A stretch of 41,592 nt of DNA from the NCBI RefSeq assembly GCF_000002865.3, contig NW_001865059.1:147418-189009 (forward strand), read 5' to 3'. The stretch comes from Monosiga brevicollis MX1. Lineage: Eukaryota; Opisthokonta; Choanoflagellata; Craspedida; Salpingoecidae. Below, piece by piece: positions 1,599 through 28,467 of the stretch; the stretch's first letter is position 1, and each line of letters opens with the position of its first letter. Under the pieces are notes generated by a model. The model was not told the DNA's origin. It made no database searches and worked only from the letters and a program-made list of their open reading frames with translations. The position numbers and the translations under genes were made by a program.

Positions 1599-4250
1599 AT
1601 GTCCGGCCCCTTGCTTACCGAGGCCGATGCGCCGGTCTTGGACAACTCTTTCCGCAATGTCCTGGTGCTGTACGGTCTGCCCGACCCCGAAGCCTCCAAG
1701 ATGGCCAAGCTCGAAAAGGTCATCATCAGCAAGGTGCTGAAGGATTATCATATCGTCGAGCACCGCTTCCTCGTTGATGAGGATGGCAAGGGTCGTGGCG
1801 TTGCCTTTCTTGAGTTCGAGACTGTCGAGGCCGCCAACACCGCCCTCGTGGCCCTCGACGGCTACAAGCTGGACAAGAAGCACACCTTCCAAGCCTGCCT
1901 TCTCGAGGATATGGACCGCATCCTCAAGACCGAAGACGAGTTTCAAGCCCCGCCCGAGGAAGCCCTCGACTCAAAGCTTGTGAGTGGTGTCGCAATATAT
2001 ACTTTTGGTGGTTGTCATTTTTCAACGTTGTCCAAGCCATGTTCGTCCGACTCACTTGGTGATTGTTCTGTGCTCGACCCACGCAGAACGAGCTTCAGAG
2101 CTGGTTGCTCAACAGCGACTGCTACGACCAGGTCGCGCTGCGTTACCAGAACATGACCTCGATCGGCTGGAACATGCGTAACCGCGTGAACATTGCCTGC
2201 GAGCGTGAAGGCTGGTCCGAGCTTGGTGTGCAATGGTCGCCGCTCGGCTCATACCTGGCCACTTTTCACCAACCTGGTATCTCCCTCTGGGGTACTGAGA
2301 AGTTTGAGCGGTATGTTCTAGAGTGTGGCTTGCCTTGCGTGTGTTTGTGTGTGTTTTAGGCTTCATTCCCTTTTTCTGGCCGTCTGCTTGCATTCAAAAA
2401 CTCATATGTCCGATACGTGCGTTGCGCTGTGACAGCATCAACAAGTTTGCGCACATGGGTGTCAAGTTTATTGATTTTTCTCCTTGCGAAAACTACATGG
2501 TCACCTTTGCCCCGGCTACGCCCATCAACGAGAAGGACCCTCGCAGCATCATCATCTGGAACCTCAAGACGGGTGAGCAAATGCGCGGTTTCATGCCCCC
2601 ACGCAAGTACCGCAGCGCCCACGGTGAGGTCGAGGAGATGTGGCCCGTCTTCAAGTGGAGCCATGACGACAAGTACTTTGCCCGTATGACTGACGCGGAC
2701 ACGCTTGCCGTGTACGACACCGAGTCGTTCAAGAAGCTGGATAACCGTGGCATTCAAATCACGGGTCTGCAAGAGTTTGCCTGGTCGCCGCGCGACAACG
2801 TTATTGCTTACTGGCAGCCCGAGATTGCCCAGCGCCCCGCCCGCATGGGTATCCTGGATATTCCCCGCAAGGAGGATCTCACCACTCGCAACATGTTCTC
2901 CGTCGTTGCTTGCCACCTCGTCTGGCAAAAGTCTGGCGAGCATGTTTGCGTGCACGTCGTACGCCACAACAAAAAGAAGACTCAGCTGTATTCTGATTTC
3001 CAGATTTTCCACATGAACGGCAAGGACATCCCCTGCGATCAGCTTGAGCTGCACCGCCCCGTCGTTGGATTTTTCTGGGCACCAGAGGGCAACCGCTTTG
3101 CCGTCATTAGCGGACAACATCCCATGACTCGTGTTGAGACCTACTCGCTCGAGTCGCGCAAGATTGTCAAGCACCCCGAACACCTCGACATCACCTGCGA
3201 GAGCGTGTTCTGGAGCCCCACCTCTCAGCACATGATCCTGGCCGATCGCTTCAAGATGAACAGTGAGTTGCGTGTCGTTTGTTGATCGTGCTCGTTTTCG
3301 CTTGTTTTTGGTCGTGTATTGTTTGTTGTTTGATCTTGTGTGGACACGATGCGTCATTCGAGACACTTGATTATGTCCAGCCTTCGCATGGTGGTGGGTA
3401 TCGGCACGTATTATAAAAGGGGGCTGATAAGGATGGACGGGGCTGGTGGAGGAGATATGATGACGTTTAGAATAGGGACAGCTGAATAGCCTTGTTGATT
3501 TATTCGTGGAAGATCTTGGGTTGTAGCTTGATCGATCGCCTGATCTCTCCAGCATCGGCCCTCGTCTTGTTCGCTCAGACCCCCTGTGCCGATATCTACC
3601 ACCTTTATTGCTGGACAACAACTGCTCTTCCGTGACGCACCGCACCGCCTCTTTTGTGTTTTTTATAATGTGACATTTTTGTGTTTCTCGTCGACTCGTG
3701 CCCTCATTCTGGCGCCCTGTCGATTGCAGGCCAGCTCGTGTTTGTGGACGCCAACACAATGGAGACGATCCGCATCGTTGAGCATGCCATGGTGACAGAC
3801 ATTGAATGGGATCCCACTGGCCGCTACGTGGCCAGTATTGCCAGTGCGTCCAAGACGCAAGTGGACACGGGCTACATCATGTGGTCTTTCCAGGGCAACC
3901 AACTGCACAAGATGAACAGGAAACACTTTTTCCAGCTTCTGTGGCGTCCGCGTCCCAAGGAGCTCATCAACGATGATGACCTCAAGGAGATTCGTCGCAA
4001 CTGGAAGAAGTACCAGACCAACTTTGAGGCCGCGGACAAGATGATGATGGATCAGGCGGACGAGGAAACCCTGCAGGCTCGTCGTGCCATGCTCGAGGAC
4101 TGGAGCGACTGGCAAATGTCTGTCGAGAAGCGCCTGTCCGAGCTGCGTGCTCGTCTCAAGAAGCTTCGTCCCGAGGATCAGGAAGACATTGTTGAAATTG
4201 TGGAGACTGTCGAGGTGCCTGTCAAGGTCGAGGAGGTTATCGTGGAGTAA
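1599..4250 (+). CDS. EIF3B: Translation initiation factor eIF3 subunit B
   Basis: Scaffold subunit of cytoplasmic eIF3, which recruits the 43S pre-initiation complex. Four exons: 1599-1979, 2087-2310, 2436-3262 and 3730-4250 (650 aa). All joins keep phase (0, 2, 1) with donors GTGAGT/GTATGT and acceptors CAG. Residues ~18-100 form an RRM: RNP2 VLVLYG at 21-26 and RNP1 KGRGVAFL at 64-71. Residues ~130-560 form the eIF3b beta-propeller, with WSPLGSYLATFH, WNLKTGEQMRGF and the conserved EWDPTGRYVAS near the end. The C-terminus is the charged helix that binds eIF3i/eIF3g in other species (RRNWKKY, then DWSDW). It lacks the long acidic N-terminal extension of the human protein (814 aa), so translation starts almost at the RRM. 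A possible AATAAA signal lies at 4525. Confidence 0.95.
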
Positions 4251-4917
4251 ATGCCCTTCCCTGCGCCGAGCGCGACGGGTTTATGGCAGAGCCATCTTCT
4301 CGCGCGTTGGGCTTGGTGCCAACTTTTTTTCTTTTTGTTTTCGTCGTCTTCTTCACCACATGGAGTGTCGTCTTCCTTGTCTTCCGTGACGACGAGAGTT
4401 GCATGACACACTGTACTCAACTTTTCCCTGCTTTTTTTTTCCTTTTTTTGGGTTGTATTACTTACGACACGGCAAGCTCGAGGGCAATTGGCCGAGCTGT
4501 GCAAAATTCAACAGACTTTTAAAAAATAAAATGAACTGAACTGAGATCAACTCCCTACGCTTGATGCTGTCTATGAATGATGTGTCAAGAAGCGCACACT
4601 GGGATGAGATGGTTGAAAAGGCAACCAGGGTGAAGCAGTGGTACAAGCGTGACTGAGGAAAACGCTTGCCACCAGCTTTTTTCTGACACTTTTTGCTGAC
4701 AAGCCTTTCTTCCTTTGTGAGGCGTTGACAACCACACACACAACAACAACAAACAAAACAATATCTTGTCGTGCCGTGTCGCTGCGGCTTTGGTGTGTAT
4801 GAGTGTGTGTGTGTGTGCTGCCGTGCTCGCTGCCGTGCTCGCTTCTTGACGTGGTTGACGTGCTTTGCAGTTGGTGTGCCCGGGGCATCGTGTGGGGTTG
4901 AATGAACACCATTGGCC
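4251..4917. promoter_or_regulatory. 3' flank of eIF3b and promoter region of RAB28
   Basis: Tandem genes on the same strand are separated by ~670 bp. The first part is T-rich (runs near 4324-4340 and 4432-4449) and contains AATAAA at 4525-4530, the probable eIF3b cleavage signal. A short (GT)n repeat at 4802-4817 lies ~100 bp before the RAB28 ATG. No other gene is seen. Confidence 0.5.
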
Positions 4918-6097
4918 ATGGCCAGTCAGGAAGACGCTGCTGAAACTTACAAGGTTCGCGCACGCATGCACCTTTGTCGTCACCCCCTCCGAGCTGCGTT
5001 GCACTCCAGTCGCCTCACCAGCTGCCCTCGACCTTCATCCTTCATACGCCTGCGCTCACAGATTGTGGTCCTGGGGAACGGGACTTCGGGCAAGGTGGGT
5101 TCCCGCCGCTCGTCGCCGCTCGCCGCTTGCCGATTGCCGCTTGCCGCTTGCCGTCCGCCGTTCGCAGCTCGCCACACAACATGACCTACGTCCCGAGATC
5201 AGCTGCGCTCGCTGCTGCCTCAGCAGCCCGTACTCACACCCAATGACCCTGTCGATCTTCTCATCGATATAGACATCTGTCATTCGTCGCTACTGCCAAG
5301 ATGGCTTTGGCAACGCCTACAATCAGACCATCGGCCTCGACTTTTTCATGAAACGACTCAATCTGCCCGGCGACAAGTATGTCACCCTGCAGATCTGGGA
5401 CATTGGGGGCCAAGCCATTGGTGGTAAAATGATTCGCAACTACCTCGAGAACGCCAAGGTATGCTGCCGTCCCCACCCTAGTCAGCCAGCTTATCGATCC
5501 GGGCACATGAACCACCGCACCGGTGCATGACGACTCTTTGCTTTGGCCCCTTTGCATAGGGCGTCATACTAGTATATGACATCACCAACCGTGACTCGTT
5601 TGAGGATCTCGCCGATTGGTACCAACTCGTGGTGGACACTTGCTCGGACTCGGGCATGCCACATGTCGGGCTCATGGCCAACAAAAGTATGTGCTGTATC
5701 TGTCCCATCACCGAACATGGGCGGAAAAAAGATCAGTCGCCTGGCACAGCATGCTCTTTGCTCACCTCACTTCTCTGTCGGACCCGCCTCAGTGGACCTG
5801 GCTCACATGCGTGCCGTCCCCGCCGAGCGCCATGACGACTTTGCCGCACGTCACCAAATGCTTAGCTTTAGCGTATGTGCTAAAGACGGCAGCAACGTTG
5901 ATCTCTCCTTTCGTCAACTCGTGGCCAAGATAACACGCATCAGCATCTCCCCTGCCGAAATGGAAGCCTTTCGCACCAAGCGCATGACCGCCGGTATTGT
6001 CAATCATCCCAAGGCTCCCAGCGACCCCTCCACTGTTCCTAAACCCTCTGCGGCCACTCAAGGCAAACCTCGTTCAACCCTGTGCCATGTCATGTAA
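4918..6097 (+). CDS. RAB28: RAB28 small GTPase
   Basis: Atypical Rab GTPase, linked in animals to cilia and BBSome/retromer traffic. Five exons: 4918-4953, 5062-5094, 5273-5458, 5560-5686, 5793-6097 (228 aa). G1 is GNGTSGKTS (17-25), split by an intron inside the P-loop. Switch I is QTIGLDFF. G3 is WDIGGQ with Gly in place of the usual Ala, a RAB28 hallmark. G4 is NKMD, assembled across an intron, followed by LAHMR. G5 is SVCAKDG. The C-terminus is CHVM, a CaaX box predicted to be farnesylated, as human RAB28 also ends in CaaX rather than the di-Cys of most Rabs. The chosen ATG gives the same short N-terminus as the family. The only uncertainty is the first exon of 12 codons. Confidence 0.95.
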
Positions 6098-6711: not shown

Positions 6712-8860
6712 TCATGCAGCTTCCTTCTTCTGCTGCTCCAGCTGTCAAAGTGGAGACGGGACAGCAATAAATGTGAGTTTAAGAAACAAAAAAACAAGAA
6801 AGCCCATCTCAATGCAAAAAGCAAGGAAAGAGAACGTTGCCCTGGACGAGAAAAAAAAACGCACTTCCTCACGCTGGCGCTGGCGCTCAGCGGCAGCACG
6901 CTTGGCTTGCATAGCGGCACCTGCACGCGAGGCCGTTGGGCGACCCAATGCATTGCTGATAAAGATGCTTGCGTCGACCAACAACTACAAGCCATTGCCA
7001 CAGATGCAACCGTTAAAAAACCGGAAAGCAATGCTGGAGGTACAACTAAGGAAGGAGGGAGGAAAAAGAAGGGGAGCGAGATGGTGTTCTCACATCAAGA
7101 TCTACGCCTGTCTTGACACCAAGCCCGTTGAGCATGTACACCACGTCTTCCGTGGCCACATTGCCGGTGGCTCCGACAGCATACGGGCAGCCACCAAGAC
7201 CAGCAACCTGCAATTCCCAAAGACGAGGTGAAAAGGTGAGCAAGGGCACTCCAAGCAGCACAGCAAACACAAACGTAAACACGCTCTCTTTCCTGCCCCC
7301 GTCCACTCTCGAACCCTCTCCCCATCTCTTACGGGCGGCATTTGCACACGGATAGGCACCTACGCTGGTATCAATGGTACCGATGCCCTTTTGCAATGAA
7401 ATCAAAATGTTGCTGAGTCCCTGACCAAAAGTGTCGTGGCAGTGCACGGCCAGTGCCTCAGGGGGCACCTCCTGTACATGTAAAAAGGGCAAACCAAGAC
7501 ATGACAATGGCATGAGGGCATGAGCAACGAATTGAACAGGATGACGGTGGCATCTGAATCTTGTGATCAGGGGCTCACGGTTGACCGTCAGGCTTATTGA
7601 CGACAAGGTACGTACGGCAGAGACAGCGTCAAGCATTTCAGCCATGGCATGAGGGGTACCAACACCAATCGTGTCACCGAGCGAGATTTCGTAGCAGCCC
7701 ATGTCGTAAAGTTTGCGGGCCACACGAGCCACCACGGCGGGGTCTGTGGGCCCGTCATAGGGGCATGCAATCACGCACGACACGTAGCTGGCGAGAGTAA
7801 GCAATCGACCATGTGAGGTTGCACAGCCGCTAGTAGCCCGGAGAAAAGGGAGAAAAAGAAAAAAAGAGGAGGAAAGAGATGCACCAACGTACCCGCGCAC
7901 GAGGACATTGTCCTGCTTGGCGGCGTCCACGACGTCGCGAAAGCGCTCAATGCTCTCGTCAATGGAGCAATTGATGTTGCGACTATCCACGGAGAAGAAT
8001 GTTTGGGAAGAAAAACACGGATGAGGAAGAGGGTGGCAGACAAAGGCGGGGGTACAAAGAAATGGGATGCACGTGTCTGTACACACAAACTTGGCCACGA
8101 ACCGACTGAAAGCTTCAGAGGCTGCGCCGAAGATGGCCACTTCTTGCGCGCCAACTTCAACGGCAGCTTGGTACCCCTTGATATTGGGGGTGAGCACGGG
8201 ATATGACACGCCCGGCTGGCGATCGATTTGCTGCATCACGGCCTTGTGGTCGCCCATCTAGAGACGTGTCGGACGAGTGTCGAGCGTCGGCGTGAATTTC
8301 AGATGGCAGTTTGGGACAGCTCCAGGCATGGCATGTGGCATGGGAGAAGTCGAGACGCACCTGAGGCACCCACTTGGGTGACACAAAGCTGGTGGCTTCG
8401 ACGACGGGAAGCCCAGCAGCCGCAAGGCGCTGGATGAGCTCCACCTTGACTTCGGTGGGCACGAGCTGTCAAGGGCAGCGTCAACCAGCGACCATGAGGG
8501 CACGCAAGGGAAAAAAATATCAAGCAAGTTTGACACGGATAGAGAAGAAGGCGCAAGGCCAACTCACGCCACGCTCGTTTTGCAGGCCATCGCGGGGGCC
8601 CACTTCAACAATCTTGACATAGTCGGGCAAGTCCTTAAACTAGAAAAAAAGGCCGAACCCCAGAAGCGGTCAGGCAAGCCGCCAAATGGGACGCGTAGCA
8701 ACCCGCACGGACATGGTACACGGGCGAATGCATTCGAGTCGCAGACGAGAACGAGCCCGAGGGGTCAAGAACGCGGACGTACCAAAGGCTGGACTTGACG
8801 GCCATGATGCAGGCAACGTCGTGAGGTCGCGAGCGTTTGCAAAGCCAAGCGCCGCGCCAT
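6712..8860 (-). CDS. HMGCL: Hydroxymethylglutaryl-CoA lyase, mitochondrial
   Basis: Cleaves HMG-CoA to acetyl-CoA and acetoacetate (leucine catabolism, ketogenesis). Ten exons: 8860-8783, 8639-8568, 8465-8361, 8257-8103, 7982-7893, 7787-7616, 7471-7364, 7207-7094, 6984-6865 and 6741-6712 (347 aa). Exon 1 is a typical mitochondrial presequence: MARRLALQ start, Arg/Leu/Thr/His-rich, no acids. Catalytic residues are intact, each one position after the human numbering: Arg42/Asp43 in GPRDGLQNE, His234/His236 in AVHCHD, and Cys267 in [19 protein letters not shown] and [11 protein letters not shown] are also conserved. The last two exons encode a charged Arg/Gln/Glu/Lys tail that replaces the CKL-type peroxisomal end of the mammalian enzyme. 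Splicing of the last 9-codon exon is inferred from phase and an early TGA. Confidence 0.95.
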
Positions 8861-11962: not shown

Positions 11963-12321
11963 NNNNNNNNNNNNNNNNNNNNNNNNNNNNNNNNNNNNNN
12001 NNNNNNNNNNNNNNNNNNNNNNNNNNNNNNNNNNNNNNNNNNNNNNNNNNNNNNNNNNNNNNNNNNNNNNNNNNNNNNNNNNNNNNNNNNNNNNNNNNNN
12101 NNNNNNNNNNNNNNNNNNNNNNNNNNNNNNNNNNNNNNNNNNNNNNNNNNNNNNNNNNNNNNNNNNNNNNNNNNNNNNNNNNNNNNNNNNNNNNNNNNNN
12201 NNNNNNNNNNNNNNNNNNNNNNNNNNNNNNNNNNNNNNNNNNNNNNNNNNNNNNNNNNNNNNNNNNNNNNNNNNNNNNNNNNNNNNNNNNNNNNNNNNNN
12301 NNNNNNNNNNNNNNNNNNNNN
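11963..12321. other. Assembly gap (359 N)
   Basis: A run of 359 unknown bases. It removes the 5' end of the minus-strand sulfotransferase and part of the region shared with the divergent SH2 gene. It is followed directly by GA and GT repeats, a likely cause of the gap. Confidence 1.
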
Positions 12322-12342: not shown

Positions 12343-12475
<133 letters not shown>

Positions 12476-12660
12476 CGGTGTGACGGTGAGTGGGACGGGC
12501 AGAGAACCCAACAGTAGAGCGATCGCACGGGGGCGGATTGACTGGATTTTGCTGCTGGTGCCGCTTGCACGTTGATCGCTGGCTGCGTTTTGTGTGATCT
12601 TCGGTTTTGGCTTTGCCACTCTATTGTTGTGATTCGGTTGTTGGTAGCTGAAGCCACACC

Positions 12661-12759
12661 ATGGCGCCACCCTGGCATCACGGCGAGCTCACAAAGGAAC
12701 AAGCCGAAGGTACGGACGGACCAAGTTGCCCCGGGTTGGGCTGCTGCTGTTGCTGCTGT

Positions 12760-12794
<35 letters not shown>

Positions 12795-15700
12795 TTGCTG
12801 TTGCTGTTGTCGTTGTTGCTGCTGCTGCTGCTTCCCCATTCGGTTTGCAAATGGATCCGACCAAGCCCTCACAAACTCGTCTCGTGCTCCAACGTGGCCT
12901 GCCAGCACTCTGCTCTCCTTTTGAAACAGGCGCGTGGTTTGTTTATCAGTCGGTCGCCCGCAATCTCCTCGTCCTCTGCTTCAAGTTCAAGGGCAAAGTT
13001 ACAACCCATGCCCTCGAAAAGGTTTGTCGGCACCTCCATTTTCCTACCTGTTTCCAGCAATAGCCTCAACTAGCGTCCACCTCACTGGTGGCCTCGGACT
13101 CTCGACTGCCCGCCCTCACCCTGCACCAGCGTGATGATGTGTGGTGCGTCAACGGCAAGGACTTTGGCATCAAGGCCGAGTCTATGGCCCGCTTGATCCA
13201 ACGCCTCACCAAGCCGCTGGCGGGCTGGCCCACCCCGCTTTCCATTCCCATCTTCAAGGGTGAGACTTTTCCGCCCGACGACACTCCATTGGAAGACATT
13301 CCATACTTCCATGGCGCCCTGCCCAAGGACATTTGTGACGCCTCATTGGCCAAGATGGGCATGAAGGACGGCACTTACATGCTCCGTTTGTACAAGCCCA
13401 ATGACCCGAGCATCCTAGTCCTGACCGTTGTGTACAAGGGAAAACCCACCCATCACCAGGTGCAGCACGAAGCAACCGTCTGGTCAATCAATCGCAAAGT
13501 TCTGCCCGGCTGCACCTCGGTGCGCCGCCTCGTTGCTGCCCTGGCCGTCACACATGCCGACTTTTGGCCCGTGCCTCTCATGCTGCCAGTCATCAACCCA
13601 CGCTGCGACACTGTCAAGCCACCTACTCAACGCGGCTCTTCTGCTGCTGCATCGCCGTCTCCGACGCCGGATCCCCAAAACACCCCATCAGCAGAGTCGG
13701 TGCCATCTTCAGAGATGCCCCAAACAGACACAAGCAACCAATACGGCAACGACGCTTCAGAAGAAGCGCCAACCGAAGCAAAGTCTGTGACCACACCTGA
13801 AATAGAGTCCAACATTTCAAGTAAACCTGAACCCCAGCCTGAGCTCCAGCCAGAATCTGAACCCCAGTCCCAGCCAGAACCTGAACCCCAGTCCCAGCCA
13901 GAGCCTGAACCCCAGTCCCAGCCAGAACCTGAATCCCAGCCCCAGCCAGAACCTGAACCCCAGTCCCAGCCAGAACCTGAGCCCCAGTCCCAGCCAGAAC
14001 CTGAACCTGAACTTCAAGCGGATGTTGCAAACAACAACGCGCCCAAAGCAGAGATCAAGGCAACCCCTGACGCCCCTGAAACTCTCCCCGAGGCCGATGC
14101 AACAGCGGACACCCACCAGACCAAAGCCGGCACGCAACTGGAGAACCCAGCAAATGCCAAGGGGCTGGTTGACGAAAGCATTTATGGCACAGTGGACGAA
14201 GCCGAGGCCCTGATTAAGACGCGTCTTCAGGACCGCGTCAAAGCAATCAACACCACTCGGGAGCCTGATGAGTGGGTAACCCCAGAAGTGGAAATTCGCC
14301 AGGGTTTGGTTGGCCAGTCTATCAAGGCGCTTCTGCCCTCAGACGATGCCCAGGTGCCCTCCGTTGAGATTGTCCTGCCCCATCCCGACTTTGACGAGCA
14401 CGAGCTCACCGTGGAGCCCAGCATGACCCTCTACTATCATGGTGATATCACGCCCGCGCAAGCCGAGGCTGCCCTTAATGCAGCCAAAGACGGGCAATAT
14501 TTGCTGCGAGCCCACGAGGCCAGCCGTCATGCCTTTGCCGTGATTCTGTCTCATGTGCACAATGGTAGCATTCTTCATACACCTCTGACCCAAAGCGACC
14601 TGAATGGCAGTTTCAAGATTGGACAGGTCGCTACTGGTGAGCGCAACCTCAATGACGCCTTGCGCTTTCTCCACGCACAGCAACCAGGTATGTTGCATTT
14701 GTTTCCTGCCCAAACCTGGTCTGCCTGTATCCGAGCAGACCACACCTGAGAGGCCTGCGCCGCACGGTGTTTTTCTTTTTTTCCATGCAACAACTGCATG
14801 GGCCGACCATGATAGGCTGGCCGCATCCCCTAACGGAAGGCATCCAGGGCATCAAAGTCCTCTCGGCGGCGGAGAAGAGCAAAATGCGCCAGGCCAATAA
14901 CCAAGCCATTGAGGAAGCTGCCCAACGCCAGCAGGCCTTGGTCGAGGAAGCCAAACGTGAACAGGCCAGAGCACGGGGATCACACCGTGCTGCCACCACC
15001 AAAGCCGAAGTCAATCTGGAGGCTCAGCGCCAACGAGCCATGGAAGAAGAGATGCAATCGCTGCGTGCTGCTCAGCTGGAAGAACGTCGAGCGCAGATGC
15101 GCGAGCAGATTCGCCAAAAGCTCGTGGCCGAACGCAAAGCGCAGGCTTTGAAGGATCTCCGCGAACAACGTCGCCAAGAAGCCGAAGCTGCCCTTGCCGT
15201 AAGATTATCAAGCCATCTGCTCACTAACATGTAAACATTTGCCGCTGCCGGTGCTCACCTTGGTATGCCCCACTGACTGATTTTCTACACAGGCCGCTCG
15301 TGCTTTCAAACCAGAGGTCGAAGTGAATCTCGACTCTGATGATGAAGATGCTGGTGTGCTGGGCCCGGAGGAACTCGATGAATGGCGACGTAATGCTCTC
15401 AAAAGTTTGTTTGACCGCGCCGCACACGCACGCGGGAGATCTTTGTCTTTGGGACCCGGTAGCTCATCGCTCTGTCATTGAACTTTAAAACATTCATAGA
15501 TGCCGAGAGTGGTGGCCCAGAGCTCATGGAGAGTATCTATGCCGCACCGGATGCGGCGCTGAAGCAAGACGAGACATCTGCCAGTGATATTGCTGGCAAT
15601 GCGCCGCTATATTCCGATTTTTCCACAACCATGTCACGCACACCCAGTACAACCGCTCTTCGCAACGACCCCGAGTTGCCCAACCCCTATGGCGTGGCGA

Positions 15701-16014
15701 CCAACGCCATTGCCGAGGAGCCTGATGCTATTGCCGCTAGTCACAATGTGGATGAGGGTGGCGCATATGGTGAAGCTGTGGATCGCTCAGCAGGCCCGTC
15801 TACAGGCGTGGAATCCAACACGTACGAAGTGCCTGCTGAGGCAAAAGAAGAGGCAACCACGTCCGCCTCACCGAGCCAAGCCGCGGCTCAGGCTCAAGCA
15901 GCACCTGCCGCAGCGGCAGCACCGGAATCTGCCCGCGATGAGACACCTTCCTCGCCTCCTGCCAAGTCCAAAGGCGGGCCCGATGACAAGAAGAAGGGTT
16001 GCCTCGTCATGTAG
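12661..16014 (+). CDS. Triple-SH2, coiled-coil, CaaX-terminated signalling protein
   Basis: Six exons: 12661-12709, 12906-13021, 13130-14687, 14816-15198, 15293-15404, 15500-16014 (910 aa). SH2-1 starts at residue 5 ([12 protein letters not shown], split by the first intron). Its FLVR position reads WFVYQ, with Tyr30 where the pTyr-binding Arg should be. SH2-2 starts at 114 (YFHGALP) with Arg141 in YMLR. SH2-3 starts at 490 (YYHGDIT) with Arg515 in YLLR. Between SH2-2 and SH2-3 is a Ser/Thr/Pro-rich linker and a (QPEPEPQS)n array. Residues ~580-700 are a strongly charged coiled coil. The tail holds tyrosine motifs YGTV (407), YAAP (753) and YEVP (848). It ends KKKGCLVM, a basic stretch plus CaaX box predicting a prenylated, membrane-bound protein. 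I know no named family with this architecture. The acceptor of exon 4 is the least certain join. Confidence 0.85.
12741..12831. repeat. (TGC/TTG)n trinucleotide repeat in intron 1 of the SH2 gene
   Basis: About 30 TGC/TTG triplets lie inside the 196-bp first intron, so the sense RNA has a CUG-rich tract and the antisense strand an open poly-Gln frame. The intron is supported by donor GTACGG, acceptor CCAG and the phase-1 join inside SH2-1. The poly-Gln frame is therefore not a gene. Confidence 0.9.
13827..14012 (+). repeat. Coding tandem repeat, (QPEPEPQS)n
   Basis: A 24-bp unit of CCAGCCAGAACCTGAACCCC type, repeated about seven times with point variants, encodes an acidic Pro/Glu/Gln linker in the SH2 protein. 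It has no stop codon and stays in the frame of the flanking SH2 domains. Confidence 0.9.
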
Positions 16015-16171: not shown

Positions 16172-19100
16172 TTAGACGACCACGGGGTCCGCTTGCTCCA
16201 GCAGCGCAAACACAGTCGTGGCATTCACTGCATAGTGTGGGTTGGGTGCAGGAAACTGGGCCGCGTAATACCAGTGGTCGCTTTTATCCGCAATGACTGT
16301 AGTATCATCGCGGAGCAGCTCCTTGGGGCCACAGCATCGACTCGTTTCATACCAGACAGTGTCTGCACTGACGGTTGCCAGACGCTCAATCAGAGTCAAC
16401 GCAAGTGCTTGCAAGTCCGCGTCCAAGCGGTTGTCCAAATACTGCACCGCCGCTCGGCAGAGCAGCCGTGTGTCAGCCACCGAAGGCGTTAGATTGTTCC
16501 ACATGTCCGCAAAGACTCCCAAAATTTTGGCCACCAGTCGGTGGCGTGGTCCATTCAGGCTACAAGCCACAAGGAAGGACATAAAATGAGGTAACAAAAT
16601 ACAAACACAAGCAGACAAAGAAACATCGACGGCGCTTCAGGTGCCATGCTAGCAGAACGCCTAGGCACATGGCTGCGAAAGGTGAGGTGGCCCAAAACTC
16701 ACCGATTGGCAAAGTCGGAAGGCTCGGCCAACAAGGCGCCATGCTGCTCGCGTAGTTGCTGCAATAAGATTGGAGCCAATTCACTGCTCATAAACGGCAT
16801 TGTGAGTGAATGTGGATGAATACCACTCATGACCAGTCGCAACTATTAGCAAGCACGGTCAAGAAAGGTACGTACGTTACAAAGCGGCGGCGTAAAAAGG
16901 ATCCACAGGCCCGGCTCAATGCAGGCAATACGTTGAGTGCGGCGAGCGCCACAAACGGCTTGCTAACACGCAAACACGGAAGCTATGGCACAATTTTTTT
17001 CAGCAGCATCACCAAGTAAGCTGCCCAATCACGGAGCACATGGTTGGATGTTTCAAGCTTGAAAGGCATTAGCGTACCAGAATGGGCCAGATTTGGGCCA
17101 CGATGGGCAAGAGCTCATTCTCAAAAGGTGCCAACACGCCGACCCCGGCTGTCAGGGCTTGAAGCAGAATCAGGCGCTCTTGGTCATTGCTGTTGCCGAG
17201 CAGGTGCTTGATGCGGCGCAAGGCCTAGATCGAGGTCAACATTTCCAGAGCCGCGGCGTAATGAGCATGGCCAAATATTTGAGGCTTTGACACCAAGACC
17301 CCTCCAAAAAAAACATACTTCCACCACGAGCATGGCATGGGGAGGTGGGGGTGGGTCTTGTGCGTGGGCGTCATTGGGATCTGGGGCATCGATGGTAGGC
17401 TCAGCAGTGCGCAAGCCATCAACGCCAACATGAAGCGAGTCTTGGGGCAGTCGCGGGCTCCACCGCTCGACGGCCACCAGAACGCTAAAAAAAAAAAAAA
17501 AAAAAGGTGGCCAAAATAAGCAAGTCGCAGCCCCTTGCAGTCGTAGGCCCAAACATGCAGACATGTATGATTGCTGTTTGAAAGTAAGGGCATGGAAATG
17601 GTGCTTGGCAGCGAGTTTGGCACAAATACGAAATGAACCACAGAGATACATGATATGCGTACTTGCGCAGAATCAGCAGGAATTGGGTTTGCAAATGGGG
17701 ATGGTAGCCATCGAGGGCACCAAAGACGTCTTGCATCATGTCCTTCACGGGAAGCAACAACTCGGGCGGACTGTATTCAAGCATGCGCTGCAAGCCAAAT
17801 GCGGCTTGTTCATCAACGTTCATATACCTTTTTGAAGTAGGGGACGATGAGGTGGAGCGCAAAAAAAATAAAAAAAATAAAAAGAGGAAAGGAAAGAGGC
17901 AGACATTGGTGCAGACGAACCGGATGCGTAGCGTAATGTCATTGATAAGGTAATCAACGTTGTCACTGAGGAGCGCCGCGGCGTCCGTGTAACCACAGGC
18001 ATGGGCCACTTGCACCATGGCCCACTGGGCGCTGCCGAACCAGAGCCAGACATGAATAGAATGAGCCCCGACGATTGCAGCGGTGTGGACATGGCGTGCC
18101 CAGCACGAGCTTTCACACCTGCTATTGACGGCTGTTTCGGGTAGTCCCGTGTGCAACAAAAGCATGAACATCAAGTGCATAAGACGCTCCCGCAGTGCCC
18201 GCTGAAGAACCTGAGATCGTGCCGAGAGGAAAGTGAGGCCGGTCTGTGATTGCATCTGCCACCGCCTCGTAAATTGGATGGGTGGTACACCCTACCTGGG
18301 CAGCTTGACCCACAGTCTCGAGCAAGAGGCACGTAAAGACGGTGACGCGAGCAACGCGATGGGCTGTTGAAGGAGCATCTTTTGCATTGTTTGAGTGGGC
18401 AGGGGTCACAGGCTGCAGGGCTTTTCCCGAGGCCCAGGAACGGGCTGCATCGAGGAGGTCACCATCCGTGCACATTGCCAACGCGAGATCCGCCAGGCTG
18501 CGCTGCTGTGGCATGAAACCTGTGCCAGCATCAGAATTTCGACTAGATGTAGAAGGGGGGCGGCTCGCCGTCAGATGTTTCCAGCTCTGAGCAACGCTGC
18601 CTTGCCACGGGCTGCTTTTAGGCGCACTTGGCAAGTTGGATTGCCCGGGAATGTCCGTAGACGGCGAGTGTGCTGCAGCAAAGGAGTCTGTATCAGGTGT
18701 TGAGAGAGCGCCTTGCACCAGGAGAAGCCACTCGGGTCGCTCGTGCAAGATGACCCGTTCAGCGTCCAGGGCATCCTCCAGGTGCAGTCCAAGCCCGCGA
18801 GCCATGCCCAGGCGCAGGAATTCGTCCATGAGGTCAGCGGTGGTGGTCAGATGAAATTGACGATACACGCGGCGCATGCGCTGAGCCGTGCCGAGGACGT
18901 CATCCACGACCACGTGCTCCTGATCGGGAGCAGCATGCTGATTGACAATTGCGAGGCATTGATCCACATCAAGGCGAAGGGCAGCAACGCAAGCGCGCAA
19001 AACGCGACCGGCGGTGTCCGCATCGGCAAAGACGGGGGTTGTGGCGGGCAGTATGCGCAAATAGGCGTTGAGGCGTCTAAGGTGGCGCTGAAAGGCATCT

Positions 19101-20418
19101 TCGGTCCAGGCTTGATGCTGTAGAACAAGCTGGTGGAGTCGCTCACGCAGTAGCGCCGTAATAACGCTCGTGAGCCGGTTGGTGTGCAGAGCAGCCAAGC
19201 AAGTCTGGGCCAGCGAGGCAATGGTCTGAGCATCGTCGCTGCTCAGCAGCACAAGGGTATCAATCCAGGACGGCACACAAGCTGGTAGGGCGCGCGCGCA
19301 GCGCAGCGCAGCTAGGCAGCAACAGCGCGCGGTGGCCTCTCGTACCGAGGCCGCCTGATGCAGGACCACAGTATGAAAGAGTTGTTGATTCAGATGTTCG
19401 ACCATGGGCACCGTGCGGCCCCACCAAGCGGCGTCGGGTGTTTGCCGCAGAGAATAGGGCTGGTCAGCAGACGAGGTCTCTGAGGCGACCACGGGGTCGT
19501 CTGACAGTTGGTCTGACGAGTCCGTCGAACGGTCGGCGGTGTCGCGCACCGTCTCGGCGAGCTCACGCAAGTCATCAAGGGGGCTGGTATCCGGGGGCAA
19601 GTTGTTGTCAGCCACGGCGTGGCAAAGGATGGCAGTGAGAAGCCGCAGACCGACGACGGCCACAGGAGCCGCGCCGTGCACGATGCGACGCAGGACCTTG
19701 GTCACAAGCGAGAGCAGTCCGGGCACCATGAAGGTGGCTACACCGGTATCACGGCGCGCAGCGCCTTCATAGAGGTGTAGCAGCAGCTCGCCGGCAGCAG
19801 CGCGAACAGCAGAGCTTCGTTGGGTATTTTCAAGCACGGTGCCCAGTTCGGCAACAAGTTGACCTAGGGCGGGCAAGTACTGATCGCTGCAGAGCGGGGC
19901 CATTATATCGGACCTTGAAAAGACCAAGGCCTCGGTGGCCTGAACAATGGCCAGGGCCACATCGTCGGCGATGGACACGGCAACACCGCGGCCAGCTAGC
20001 ACGAGCCCGAGAATTTGAAAATGTTGAAGGGCCAGTGGCAAGGGGATAGCCTGGCCCCCATGGCGGAAAAGAATGCCCAGTGCCTGGAGCGCGGCAATGA
20101 CGTCTTTCTCCTTGGCCTGCTTGCCGGCAATCACCACGCGCAGCGGCATGCAAATATGCTCAGCCAATGCCGCCAAGGCCGGCGGTGGGATCTACCAGGA
20201 CACGCATGCCAGACACTGAGGCGAGCGCAACAAGCAACACATGCCCATCACCCACGGCTCGCTCCTGCACCCACGGCACACCGCACACCGCACACCGCAA
20301 AGCAAGTCCAAACCTGCAGAATAACCTGCTGCACCTCCTCACAGGCCGCTGCATCCAAGCGCTGCACCAGGCGTTGCACCGCCCCACGCAGCCGATCCAA
20401 CATCCCCGTCATCGCCAT
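16172..20418 (-). CDS. TTI1: TELO2-interacting protein 1 (TTI1), HEAT-repeat subunit of the TTT complex
   Basis: With TELO2 and TTI2, TTI1 forms the Hsp90 co-chaperone that stabilises PIKK kinases (mTOR, ATM, ATR, DNA-PKcs, SMG1). Ten exons: 20418-20314, 20191-18296, 18210-18119, 18031-17921, 17827-17663, 17484-17319, 17224-17078, 16982-16876, 16825-16703, 16559-16172. All phases match, giving 1099 aa against 1089 in human. The body is Leu/Ala-rich alpha-helical repeat. Family-diagnostic segments lie in the C-terminal half: AHACGYTDAAALLSDNVDYL, LINDITLRIR, ENELLPIVAQIWPILLP and CGSFLRRRF. The start ATG (CCCATGG) opens an amphipathic helix. The gene is convergent with the SH2 gene, only 157 bp between stop codons. 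The acceptors of exons 8 and 9 have weak pyrimidine tracts and were chosen by phase and similarity. Confidence 0.9.
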
Positions 20419-23600: not shown

Positions 23601-24590
23601 CGATACTCACCAACTGCCAGTGGATTCATTACACCCGACACTGGTACTAAGCACCACCGAGCTCAGAAAAAGAAGCCAGTTCCCACCAAAGTTTGAATAC
23701 TAGGACAAAATTCAACCAACCCTCATGGCGAGCTGCAGGGACGGAGGGATTGATTGGCGCCGCTGCAGGGACGGAGGGATTGATTGGCCGTGGGCGCCCA
23801 CAGATCAGTTGTGATGGCCTATCTTGATCGGGCCCCAAATCCGTTCCCTTGGCTGCGACAGTAGATAGGGACAGTGGGAATCTCGTTCATCCATTCATGC
23901 GCGTCACTAGTTCGATGACGAGTCATTGGCTACCTTAAGAGAGCCATCGTTACTCGCGCCGTTTACCCGCGCTTGGTTAAATTTCTTCACTTGGACATTC
24001 ACAGTACTGGGCAGAAAGCACACTGCGTCAACACCATTTCCGGTCATCGCCATGCTTTGTTTGAATTAAACACTCTTGTCCGTACCAGTTCAAGATCGGT
24101 TGTTAAGCGCAGGCCGTGACTTGCAGCACCCGAGAGCAAAGCCCTCTGCCCCCGGTCCCAGCCAGGTCCGCCAGACTTTGACACCAATCACTGTGACTTC
24201 GGTCCAGCTCCTAACATGCGATACCCTCCAATTGTCGACCAAACCCCACCATAAGAAAAAATTATACAAGTCAAAGGTCAATCTTTTAGTGTGAAACAAT
24301 ACAGAAAATCATTTCACCACACCGTCTATCTATTGAGTGGGTCGCTGTCCGCCCCGTCCGCCCCGTCCGCGCTGTTGGGCTGTTGGCGTCTCGTGCCTGT
24401 CGCTATGTCTGACGCCGTCTTGTCTCTGTTTCTGTTCCCATCGCCATCCCATCGCCGCCTCAGGTGCCCGCCTTCGCCCGTGTCTCTTTCTGGCAACTCA
24501 ACAGCTTGACGTGTGAATGAAAAATCTCACTCATTCGCGCACATTTTCTGTTTTTGGGCGGACTCGTCCAGTCTGGAGCCACCTTGGGGC
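23467..24590. other. Gene-poor stretch upstream of the FG-GAP gene
   Basis: About 1.1 kb between the PARP-like gene and the FG-GAP gene. It includes the second copy of the 23.3/23.5-kb duplication and a short tandem repeat at 23732-23788. After 23850 it is mixed unique sequence with no defensible gene. A CCGCCCCGTC direct repeat is found near 24350. Confidence 0.4.
23732..23788. repeat. 27-bp tandem repeat (two copies)
   Basis: GCTGCAGGGACGGAGGGATT plus TGATTGGC occurs at 23732-23758 and 23762-23788, 30 bp apart, identical over 27 bp. Confidence 0.9.
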
Positions 24591-25883
24591 ATGATGCGCA
24601 ACGTTGGCTGTGCCAGCCGCGGGCTGTGTGCGTTGGTGCTTGTTGTTCTATCTGTTTTGGTCATGGGCACCGAGCGACCGTCCATTACTGTGGATTCCGA
24701 TGGAACCTTGTTAATCAATGCGACCAATCGTGTCATTGTAAACGGGGTGGATGTCATGGCGCACTCGACCGTCTTCAAGTTTCTCCTTCGCTCAAACCCG
24801 CAAATGGTGACCCCTCAACGTGTCATCTCAACGGATGCAGATGGCGCACAAGCAGTGTACGCAGCCGACCTGGATAATGATGGACTCATCGATGTGCTCA
24901 GCGCCAGCTACCGCGATAACAAAATTGCGTGGTACCGCAACACCGGCAATGGCAGCTTTTCTGACCAAATTGTCATTGGCATTGCCGACAACTACGCGCG
25001 GTCAATCCACGCTGCCGACTTTGACAAGGATGGATACGTGGACGTGCTCATTGCTGCGGCCTACCAGGACAACATTGCGTGGTATCGCAACAATGGCAAT
25101 GGTACTTTTTCCAATCGACGCGTCATCTCCACCTCTGCCAATGGGGCGCGGCTAGTATATGCGGCTGATCTCGACAATGACGGCGACATGGATGTCCTCT
25201 GTGGCAGTGTTTACGACAACAAAGTTTCATGGTACCGCAACAATGGTGCCGGCGTCTTCTCCAACCAGCGCATTATTTCAAATACCTTGAGGGATGTACG
25301 CTCGGTATACGCAGCCGACCTTGACAAGGATGGTGACCTGGACGTCCTCAGCGCCAGCTCCCAAGATGACAAGATTGCATGGCATCGAAATGACGGCACT
25401 GGCACTTTTAGCGCGCCGATCATCATCAGCAACTCTGCAATTGGAGCACGCTCGGTACATGCAGCTGATCTAGATCAGGATGGGCACGTTGACGTCTTGA
25501 GTGCTGCCGCAGCTGACAATACGATTGCCTGGTATCGCAACAATGGCGATGCCACCTTCTCCGACCCGCGCATCCTTTCGACCAACGCAATGGGGGCGCG
25601 CGCGGTTTTTGCCGCTGATCTGGATCAAGACGGTTGGCTCGACGTCCTGAGTGCCAGCGAAGGGGACAATAAGATTGCCTGGCACCGTAACACGGGACAG
25701 GGCACTTTCTCAGCCCAGCTGATTATCAGTACGGCGGCACTCGATGCGCACTCGGTGTTTGCTGCCGATCTAAACCAGGACGGCAGTTTGGATGTCCTGA
25801 GTGCCAGTCTCGGCGATAACAAGGTGGCTTGGTATCCCCTCGATCCCCCACTACTCCGCGCTGTGGCTGAGACCATGGCGTAA
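24591..25883 (+). CDS. Secreted FG-GAP/VCBS beta-propeller protein, seven Ca-binding repeats
   Basis: Intronless gene for 430 aa. The start is the ATGATG at 24591; upstream frames lack a good ATG. Residues ~8-24 (LCALVLVVLSVLVMG) are a signal peptide. A ~45-residue lead (ITVDSDGTLLINATNRVIV) follows, then seven ~49-residue repeats. Each has the pattern ARSVYAADLDxDGxxDVLSAS, then DNKIAWYRNNGxGTFS. The DxDxDG loops are calcium-binding FG-GAP/VCBS motifs as in integrin alpha chains. Seven blades would close one beta-propeller. No transmembrane segment follows the last repeat, so the protein is probably secreted. The likely role is adhesion or extracellular carbohydrate/protein binding, by inference. 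Lack of introns and the bacterial-type repeat make transfer or retroposition possible. Confidence 0.85.
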   Translation: MMRNVGCASRGLCALVLVVLSVLVMGTERPSITVDSDGTLLINATNRVIVNGVDVMAHSTVFKFLLRSNPQMVTPQRVISTDADGAQAVYAADLDNDGLIDVLSASYRDNKIAWYRNTGNGSFSDQIVIGIADNYARSIHAADFDKDGYVDVLIAAAYQDNIAWYRNNGNGTFSNRRVISTSANGARLVYAADLDNDGDMDVLCGSVYDNKVSWYRNNGAGVFSNQRIISNTLRDVRSVYAADLDKDGDLDVLSASSQDDKIAWHRNDGTGTFSAPIIISNSAIGARSVHAADLDQDGHVDVLSAAAADNTIAWYRNNGDATFSDPRILSTNAMGARAVFAADLDQDGWLDVLSASEGDNKIAWHRNTGQGTFSAQLIISTAALDAHSVFAADLNQDGSLDVLSASLGDNKVAWYPLDPPLLRAVAETMA

Positions 25884-26401: not shown

Positions 26402-28467
26402 ATGGCGGGATTGGCGCCCGTGATTCGCTTTTTCGAAGCGGACAAGCAGGTGCCGCTCGGCACCTCGGCAGATCAATGGGAGGAGGTCAGTTTGGTCTGT
26501 CTGTGTGGGTCTGAGGCCGACTTTGTAGCCAAGTTTCTCGTTTGCAGTGCACAGGTCATCGCATGTCCACAAACTCAGTTTACATGTGAATGCTGTCCTT
26601 GTTGTTGTTGTTGTCGCTGTCGCTGTTGTTGTTCTTGCTGCTGGGTCTGCATAGGTTTTACACGAGTTGATGGCGCAAGTCCCAGCTCCAGATGAATTGG
26701 CTCAGCGTTTTGCCGACCCGGATGACGCTGAATCTGATGACGTTCAAGCGTATCTGCAATGGTGTCGCCAGCAGCCCAACCTCAGTACGGATGACCATAC
26801 TGGCCGCTCGCCGCCCACTTCGCTTGTCCCCTTCTGCCCTGCTCTGATCGACATGTTGAGGGACTGACACATTGGTTGGCACAGGTGTACAAACCTCAGT
26901 GGTGCCATCGGATGTCTTTGGCGCTTCGGCTGAACTTCATGATATCAAGGTCAAGCCTGTGCGAGGTTACGGCAGCGACGATCAGGTAAGGATAGCTCCC
27001 AGCAATTGGCGTTGACCGCTGTCACACCGCACCATTTCCGTGGTTGACGTGGCCTTGAATGTCCTGCATCTCATGCAATCAGGTGTATTTGGACTTTCCT
27101 GAAATTCGAGAGCGCGTGGCTCGCGGCAATACGATTCTGACGCGTCGACATCCCAAACGCTCCCATGCTCACTTTGTCGTGCAAGGCCTGCACAAGTTTA
27201 CCGGGGCCAAGGGGCAGGATGATGATGACGTCATCGACAATGAAAAGCTCTCCTCCGTCGAGGCGGCGGCCGTCAATTGGCGTCGCTTTTTCATCGGGGA
27301 GGATGCCGCGAGCGCGCGTCACGTGATTTGCATGGACAAGGCCAACGGCGAAGCCGGCCACGTGGCTGTGGTGCGTACCCAGGACGCCTACGTCCTGCTC
27401 GCCGGCAGCAAGAATGTGCACCTGGCCTTTCGAGATGCTGCCGATCTGGCCGCCTATCGTCGCGAGCCCCGTTATCTGGTGGCTTCAGCCGTCGCCGATG
27501 CATTTCTGCGCCACTTGCAACAACTGACACCTGAGCGGCGAGGCGAGCTCTTGGCCTTTATGGCCTGGACGGGTCTGACCGCCTGCTTTGAGATTCTACA
27601 GCCTTCCTATCAGCACGTGGAGTTGCTGACCAATACCGAACCCGAGTTGCTCTTCCTGACCTTTGTCGAGCCCAGTCCAGCCCCAAAGACGACCTCCCTC
27701 TGTGGCCTACGCCCCGACGCCGCGCTGGAGTTGGCACGTTACTTTGGTCTCAAAGTGGTCAAGTACTCGGTCCATCCCATCTCCGACCTGGAGACTCAGC
27801 TCAACGCCATCACCCAGTGGCATGGCAAGGAAGGCGCCGTCCTCTACTATCTCAACGATGCCGGTGAAGTCTTGGGCCTGCTGAAGAAGAAATCCAACTG
27901 GTCGGTTGTCCTGCTGCACACGAGTGGCACGCACTGCATGTGATAACGTTTTCTGCCCAAGACGTTCCTGCCCTGTGATCGGCGCTCATGTTGGCGGTGC
28001 CTTGTTCTGGGTGTTTGCTGCTTAGGTACGTGATTCTTCGAGCATGTCGCGAGAAGCTACGAGCAGGGCTCGGAGCCTTTTGTAAAGAAGTCAAGTCCGG
28101 GCGAGAACCGGTAAGACCTCATCGGCCCCTTGTACGCCGGCCCAGTGGCCTGATCATTCTCACCCCCTTGCCTCACTTGGGTGTGCAGAATTATCACGCA
28201 CAGGCCGAAAGGTTAAAGGCCCGGACGGTGCAACGCATGATGGCTCGCCTCAAGCAACTCAACGAGTGGCTCGTTATGACGCCTGAGGAGATGGCGGCAT
28301 GGTCAAGCTTGCTCACCGATTTTATCACCCATGTCTTTGACCGCGCCGCTCAGGTCCAGGGCCGCGTCAATGCCTTTGTGGAGGAGGTCCGCTGCCAGTT
28401 TCCTCAAACCTGGCACTCTTTCGCCGGCCCTCGCGCCACAGCCTCACCTCTTGCACAAACGCCTTGA
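26402..28467 (+). CDS. T4 Rnl1-like RNA ligase (nucleotidyltransferase superfamily)
   Basis: Predicted ATP-dependent RNA end-joining enzyme. Six exons: 26402-26485, 26655-26784, 26885-26985, 27083-27900, 28026-28110, 28189-28467 (498 aa, all phases consistent). The nucleotidyltransferase motifs appear in order. A pre-motif WRRFFIGE precedes motif I MDKANGEA (Lys191 as the adenylated residue; canonical KxDG is KxNG here). Next come a motif-III-like DAYVLLAGSKNVHLAF and motif IIIa CFEILQPSYQHVELL (Glu275). Motif IV is KEGAVLYY (Glu355). Motif V, KKKSNWYVILR (Lys373-375), is rebuilt across an intron with a TG|G join. The spacing and the KSxWYV ending match Rnl1 rather than Rnl2 or DNA ligases. 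The C-terminal ~110 residues are helical with no known domain. The biological substrate (tRNA repair, splicing or other) cannot be told from sequence. Confidence 0.75.

Follow-up and report, generated by a model that had tools for sequence, protein, structure and literature searches.

How might a phosphotyrosine-reading protein be wired if it were anchored at a membrane first and read phosphotyrosine second? The question is raised by a gene of the choanoflagellate Monosiga brevicollis MX1 (RefSeq assembly GCF_000002865.3; 39.47 Mb in 57 contigs) at positions 12661 to 16014 of a 41,592-nt stretch of contig NW_001865059.1 (C36:147418-189009 in our labels), hereafter the window, whose numbering we use for the gene. 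A first-pass annotation, made from the letters alone, had described its product as three SH2 domains joined to a coiled coil, a Tyr/Pro-rich tail and a C-terminal CaaX box. Computed directly from the window, the gene encodes three SH2 domains, the first of which has lost its pocket arginine, as well as tyrosine motifs and a CaaX sequence in the frame favored as coding. At the level of prediction the architecture (three SH2 domains, one degenerate; a likely kinase-substrate tail; a CaaX end) is real, and it is unusual. We consider it reasonably probable that the protein is a farnesylated, membrane-tethered multi-SH2 phosphotyrosine scaffold. What the first-pass annotation observed is thus partly confirmed and what it made of it partly supported; it had missed the arginine loss, two splice sites that have to be moved, the Abl/Crk-type motifs of the tail, and an SH2 type followed by WPxPL in other genes of the genome, one of which (on C47) has the same domain order.

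Gene Model and SH2 Domains

The reading frame runs on the forward strand, as do all features of the gene given below, from the ATG at 12661 to the TAG at 16014, with an in-frame TGA at 12649 upstream of the start. As had been proposed, it spans six exons whose phases close with no stop, and it encodes 928 amino acids. The earlier description gave no exon coordinates, and the simplest phase-closed model (942 amino acids) is a reconstruction made here; in that model Pfam does not pick up SH2-1 even at E 10. With the ATG fixed and GT-AG choices enumerated in set ranges for introns 1 and 2, we obtained 691 phase-consistent open models, which were scored with an SH2 hidden Markov model (HMM) built from 26 other SH2 domains of the same genome, the window gene excluded. 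The model 12661-12709/12906-13021/13130- ranked first of the 691, at 31.3 bits over profile positions 1 to 75 of 78, with the runner-up at 23.8 bits and the simplest model at 10.2. It differs from the simplest by two acceptors, moved from 12930 to 12906 and from 13064 to 13130; moving both gives SH2-1 canonical length. Its Pfam score reaches 17.8 bits (E 0.0035) with both acceptors moved and 14.2 with the first alone, and the second alone brings no match. Over the whole protein, the Pfam SH2 score rises from 47.3 bits in the simplest model to 58.0 bits (E 1e-15) in the 928-residue model, and in each of the two scans only two stretches are significant on their own (E 0.05). As a prediction from sequence, the gene is real, and two acceptors have better positions here than the simplest model gives them.

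Exon 1 (12661-12709) holds the start ATG and the N-terminal part of SH2-1 and ends at the donor AAG/GTACGG; exon 2 (12906-13021), the best of the 691 splice models by SH2 score, holds the SH2-1 core. Exon 3 (13130-14687), backed by the splice-model ranking and the codon score and covered by a stop-free frame at 13064-14749, carries the end of SH2-1, SH2-2, a repeat linker and most of SH2-3. The end of SH2-3 with GWPHPL and a helix-like stretch lie in exon 4 (14816-15198), whose acceptor at 14816 is supported because WPxPL then follows all three SH2 domains; the other two acceptors were first suggested by SH2 spacing. Exon 5 (15293-15458) encodes the helix end and an acidic segment and has an uncertain 3' end, with an alternative donor at 15390. 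Exon 6 (15500-16014), favored by its codon score, encodes the tail with its tyrosine motifs, the CaaX end and the stop TAG. For the codon scores, three long window frames served as the training set; exons 2 to 6 were scored, exon 1 being too short and the repeat in exon 3 excluded. The predicted frame is the best forward frame in each scored piece; a minus-strand frame of exon 4 outscores it but contains two stops.

All three SH2 domains that had been claimed stand above 300 shuffles each in the own-genome HMM (0 of 300 reach the score in any case). SH2-1 (12670-13240, amino acids 4-92) spans introns 1 and 2 and scores 31.5 bits, SH2-2 (13301-13579, amino acids 113-205) scores 32.9, and SH2-3 (14429-14832, amino acids 489-580), interrupted by intron 3, scores 30.7. 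The linker has no score at all, and helix and tail reach 0.2 bits. Against the Pfam SH2 family (PF00017; gathering score 21 bits), SH2-2 (23.1 bits) and SH2-3 (30.0 bits) pass alone, leaving only SH2-1 below the cut-off. The first-pass annotation had named HMM rejection of two of the three regions as what would refute it, and that outcome did not occur. Two points count against a full set of three: even the corrected SH2-1, at 17.8 bits, stays under the gathering score, and its own-genome score is partly selected, the splice model having been chosen by the same HMM.

Do all three domains keep a phosphotyrosine pocket? In the alignment, the pocket arginine and histidine (positions we take to be betaB5, of the FLVR motif, and betaD4) are both kept in SH2-2 (GTYMLR, THH) and SH2-3 (GQYLLR, ILH) and both absent from SH2-1, where Tyr30 in GAWFVYQS occupies the place of the FLVR arginine and a Thr that of the histidine. 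AWFVYQS is present in every one of the 25 top-ranked splice models. The domain is missing its FLVR arginine, and it probably does not bind phosphotyrosine. The loss of both residues could also mark a gene in decay, its 5' part drifting. We regard this as very improbable: the 928-codon frame is kept over six exons, codon bias is kept in exons 2 to 6, and SH2-1 scores like the other two in the own-genome HMM, though on a splice model chosen by that score.

In the Pfam scan of the 928 residues, SH2 and DUF7063 were the only families found, with no kinase domain and no SH3. The DUF7063 match lies on SH2-3 (14432-14629) and, with the whole protein as query, scores 31.2 bits against a cut-off of 27. 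A genome search at E 1e-3 returned SH2-3 as the sole match, at 25.2 bits. Because SH2-3 matches DUF7063 above the cut-off and is its only match in the genome, the comparison suggests that DUF7063 is an SH2-like family; as a family marker we rejected it, since a single genome match defines no family here.

A GCT triplet repeat (31 copies, 84% matches) occupies 12740-12832 inside intron 1, and close to a pure TG microsatellite (12369-12474, 53 copies) immediately 5' of the gene there is a 359-N gap (11963-12321). The promoter and 5' untranslated region may be concealed there.

The CaaX End and the Last Exon

How secure is the C-terminus? The protein ends in KKKG-CLVM (15988-16011), a polybasic stretch followed by a CaaX box with Cys925 at 16000-16002, as the first-pass annotation had read it. 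In both halves of exon 6 the frame that leads to it scores best of six and is stop-free; in the second half one other forward frame is also stop-free, at a low score. A farnesylation end is plausible here, since CLVM with a preceding KKK presumably fits the rules for farnesylation.

Three observations weigh against a fixed path to this end. The whole gene model is a sequence prediction. The exon 5-6 junction is not fixed by sequence alone, because CLVM is reached by 56 of the 732 junction pairs tested for introns 4 and 5; 12 one-intron joins reach it too. And the predicted intron 5 measures only 41 nt, the other introns being 94 to 196 nt long. With the alternative donor at 15390, intron 5 would instead measure 110 nt, nearer to the others in length, and the protein 905 amino acids, 23 residues shorter but still with the CaaX box. 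Retaining the 41-nt intron leads to an early stop and a protein end without CaaX. The product might then be a soluble adaptor whose major transcript keeps intron 5 or is spliced elsewhere, with the CaaX form minor or absent; alternative splicing could even toggle the protein between cytosol and membrane. The short, retainable intron and the junctions that are not unique speak for this, as does a precedent in the available part of PMC5043372, where database models of M. brevicollis crka1 and crka2 differed from cDNA, above all from the 5' end into the SH2 domain. We nevertheless think it unlikely, given that the exon 6 frame is the best of six and stop-free in both halves and that the phases close so as to put CaaX exactly at the C-terminus. 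GC content, 0.37 in intron 5 and about 0.60 in exon 6, also argues for splicing, although introns 1 to 3 (0.52-0.59) show no such contrast with the exons.

Exon 6 could instead be a small gene of its own, read from an in-frame ATG at 15526 as a 162-residue prenylated protein, the SH2 gene ending earlier. That ATG and the mere 41 nt between exons 5 and 6 are compatible with such an arrangement, but the space for a 3' end and a promoter is small and the canonical GT-AG ends close in phase, and we give it very little credence.

Might the CaaX end be fortuitous, with the C-terminus as predicted but unprenylated in the cell and the protein recruited through its SH2 domains only? Prenylation of Cys925 is a prediction, and chance CaaX-like ends do occur. 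The genome holds 93 SH2 clusters (116 places: 114 from a genome SH2 search and 2 added from a search with the N-terminal query), and we read at least 3 kb downstream of 25 of them, the window gene included. There we found 16 sense-strand CaaX-stop places, again including the window gene, 13 of them in frames of fewer than 40 codons. The three frames of at least 40 codons belong to the window gene (180 codons), C20 (118) and C28 (105), with 5, 3 and 1 Lys or Arg, respectively, in the 12 residues before the Cys. Only the window gene among the 25 has a frame of at least 40 codons that ends in CaaX with at least 4 Lys or Arg before the Cys. Given the composition of the protein itself, the probability of a chance CaaX end is about 4e-4, a value for CaaX alone with KKK not counted. 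This value and the fit of CLVM and KKK to the farnesylation rules make an accidental end, in our judgment, distinctly unlikely. The C20 gene (L031), which ends in RRPRAWCFIF, was set aside; a weak PDZ-like match precedes these residues, which look like intron read-through.

The enzymes that modify CaaX ends are probably present in the genome, as judged by family matches. The prenyltransferase family PF00432 matches four gene places, each above the cut-off, and none of 14 control genomes; we assume that it may take in enzymes other than farnesyltransferase, and the beta gene was not singled out among the four. The ICMT family PF04140 matches one gene place above its cut-off. Its match is weak evidence for CaaX processing, and tells against our reading to that extent, because 5 of the 14 control genomes match too.

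Tyrosine Motifs, Linker and Helix

What could the remainder of the protein do? The Tyr/Pro-rich tail of the first-pass annotation exists as a C-terminal tail but is not Tyr-rich by count, with 5 Tyr in 174 amino acids; it is the motifs that are notable. Tyr771 (15538-15540) lies in ESIYAAP, an Abl-peptide-like YxxP site, and Tyr866 (15823-15825) in SNTYEVPAE, a YxxP site of Crk-SH2 type, while Tyr407 (14183-14185), upstream of the tail, lies in ESIYGTVD. IYAAP occurs once in the protein and in 0.12% of 20,000 shuffles, and the two [ED]xIY[AG] sites in 0.005% of 20,000. In the available part of PMC4474922, the kinase MbAbl2 had its highest activity among five peptides on EAIYAAPFAKKKG, and ESIYAAP is close to this best tested substrate. 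The Tyr407 site resembles RTKB2 peptide 1 (SEEVYGAVVD), which, as far as the accessible text of PMC3082566 goes, was phosphorylated by M. brevicollis HMTK1, MbSrc1 and MbSrc4 and reported as a better substrate than the c-Src peptide for MbSrc1 and MbSrc4. The SH2 domain of M. brevicollis crka1 binds phospho-YxxP peptides, pYDVP ones included, in the part of PMC5043372 available.

Other observations tell against this reading. Two or more YxxP occur in 44% of whole-protein shuffles and 8% of tail shuffles, and the shuffle values are optimistic for motifs picked after being seen. In the same accessible portion of PMC5043372, only two of the 21 phosphopeptides tried on the crka1 SH2 domain are named as binders (8-10 uM), and the authors' BLASTP search for these two sequences turned up no protein of M. 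brevicollis that contains them. When we compared the crka1 SH2 domain (PDB 2RVF) with the genome assembly, the best match reached 51%, and a DNA pattern for GKVTHYK had 0 matches; we take the assembly as incomplete, and crka1 may sit in a part absent from it. A Crk-like SH2 domain on C48 was tried as crka1 and rejected: its best PDB matches are Crk or Crk-like chains with 2RVF fourth, and the 2RVF stretch itself reaches 51% at best in the genome. The missing crka1 spoke against M. brevicollis as the source, but two cloning primers for M. brevicollis HMTK1 (PMC3082566) point to this species: a 20-base part of the 3' primer matches once, at C27:360839 on the plus strand, and an 18-base part of the 5' primer matches at two places, of which C27:362313 on the minus strand is one, so that on C27 the two are oriented toward each other at a distance of about 1.5 kb. 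The link from Abl to Crk that we propose for the tail is one that we infer.

The Pro/Glu/Gln repeat that had been noted is present, as a Pro/Glu/Gln/Ser linker (13823-14017, amino acids 287-351) encoded by a tandem repeat at 13846-14007 with a 24-bp unit in 6.8 copies. Less survives of the coiled coil. A helix-like stretch rich in Ala, Glu, Arg and Gln does lie at 14863-15307 (amino acids 591-707, interrupted by intron 4), and over 112 residues (amino acids 591-702) it is 22% Ala, 16% Glu, 15% Arg and 14% Gln. Its heptad contrast, measured over the same 112 residues, is matched by 37% and 89% of 300 shuffles for two residue sets, whereas the GCN4 control is significant; its best single 28-residue heptad window gives 0.087. 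Oligomerization through a coiled coil, an idea of the first-pass annotation, is not supported, neither the heptad contrast nor the i,i+4 charge pairs exceeding shuffles. The coiled coil, though conceivable, lacks support; the more likely role of the long charged helix is that of a spacer, not of an oligomerizer.

Proposed Mechanism

How could these parts work together? In the scaffold that we favor, Cys925 would be farnesylated and the KKK would help keep the protein on the inner plasma membrane, where SH2-2 and SH2-3 could dock on phosphorylated receptors or partners already there. SH2-1 would serve as a structural or phosphotyrosine-independent module. The tyrosines of ESIYAAP, TYEVP and ESIYG, in tail and linker, might be phosphorylated by Abl- or Src-type kinases. 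In that form they could bring in Crk or other SH2 proteins, or they could fold back and engage the protein's own SH2-2 and SH2-3 as a switch. The more specific version, a lipid-anchored Abl-Crk docking scaffold with a permanent anchor, SH2-2 and SH2-3 as the reader and pYAAP and pYEVP as docking sites of its own, we put forward tentatively, as a possibility on the doubtful side. MbAbl2, crka1 and the tail all come from one species and so offer a concrete test of phosphotyrosine circuits outside animals.

An SH2 Type Shared Within the Genome

Does this kind of SH2 domain occur elsewhere in the genome? Each SH2 domain of the window gene is followed by WPxPL (GWPTPL, FWPVPL and GWPHPL), and this type recurs in other multi-SH2 genes: WPxPL-type endings stand after three SH2 domains on C47 and after the second SH2 domain on C20, and a KGKPTHH-like core is found on C47, C20 and C48. 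The C47 gene (about 806700-809150, L046, minus strand), whose two open frames both match Pfam SH2, has the same order of SH2-SH2-linker with Tyr motifs-SH2-charged helix and W(W/F)P(V/S)PL-type endings, but its frame ends in KYTKRTPP with no CaaX seen. Its kinship rests on SH2 type and domain order, because a query of its SH2-3 and helix, run against the genome at E 1e-3, retrieves nothing but itself. The N-terminal query of the window gene gave 15 matches, 2 of them its own and 13 elsewhere at 26-38% identity, mostly over SH2-2; the C-terminal query gave 4, of which 3 were its own and 1 lay on C47 (31%, E 3.6e-4, at the second SH2 domain there). Close paralogues are not shown by these matches at 26-38%, the C-terminal part of the C47 gene failing to retrieve the window gene. 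Searches farther afield found no relative: 3 stretches of viral contigs matched the pattern of the exon 3 piece with SH2-2, and 54 stretches of prokaryote genomes that of the piece with SH2-3, and none encodes a relative by tblastn.

L031 (C20:232113-242013) encodes, at 3000-5088, two SH2 domains and a long repetitive KARREAED helix, then a weak PDZ-like match; its SH2 cores are KGRPTHH and KGKPTQH, and the second SH2 ends in FWPVPL. On the same contig as the window gene, two loci, L043 (C36:214500-220500) and L044 (C36:232000-238800), each show four minus-strand SH2 matches, which fall within 1.6 kb in L043 and within 2.9 kb in L044. Nine open frames scanned in the window gave, as neighbors, a TTI1 N-terminal TPR match (18122-20191, minus strand), seven FG-GAP_3 stretches (24510-25883, plus), an HMGL-like match (7046-8257, minus) and DUF7920 with weak RNA-ligase similarity (27059-27943, plus).

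Comparison with Known Systems

Has such a protein been described? We know of no metazoan SH2 protein with three SH2 domains and a CaaX box. Literature searches combining choanoflagellate, SH2 domain and prenylation, or Monosiga, SH2 and CAAX, or choanoflagellate and three SH2 domains returned no paper, and broader searches showed no such protein among the titles and abstract beginnings listed; surveys from 2008, which lay outside the search, may list the gene. The main text of PMC10320760, so far as available, has no CLVM.

The nearest published wiring that we encountered, within the accessible text of PMC5043372, is that of five proteins with a transmembrane segment from M. brevicollis and S. 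rosetta (A9VAL3, A9V449, PTSG_05573, 12435 and 12436). Like the window protein they are membrane-held and carry YxxP motifs, and three of them also contain SH2-like domains, one or two each, in their cytosolic part; the window protein differs in its proposed lipid anchor, its three SH2 domains and its only two YxxP sites.

Among animal proteins, Syk and ZAP-70 share the tandem SH2 arrangement, and they are the best PDB match (84.5 bits, among 60 of 267 matches) of a ten-SH2 profile, A1, to which the window gene contributed three domains. Unlike them, the window protein has no kinase domain and has a third SH2 domain, a degenerate SH2-1 and a CaaX box. Src-family kinases combine an SH2 domain and a kinase domain with an N-terminal myristoyl anchor; the window protein resembles them in joining SH2 domains to a proposed constitutive lipid anchor, which would here be a C-terminal CaaX, and differs in having no kinase domain. 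Scaffolds of the p130Cas/BCAR1 and LAT type present a disordered tail of kinase-substrate tyrosines without an SH2 domain of their own, and the tyrosine tail proposed here would likewise recruit SH2 proteins at the membrane; p130Cas/BCAR1 has an N-terminal SH3 and many YxxP sites, whereas the window protein has no SH3 by Pfam and two YxxP. Animal SH2 adaptors are usually brought to membranes by phosphotyrosine. If our reading is true, one protein would be reader, substrate and anchor, roles that in animals fall partly to recruited SH2 adaptors and partly to scaffolds of the LAT or p130Cas type, and a close single-celled relative of animals would have a different wiring, anchored first and reading phosphotyrosine second.

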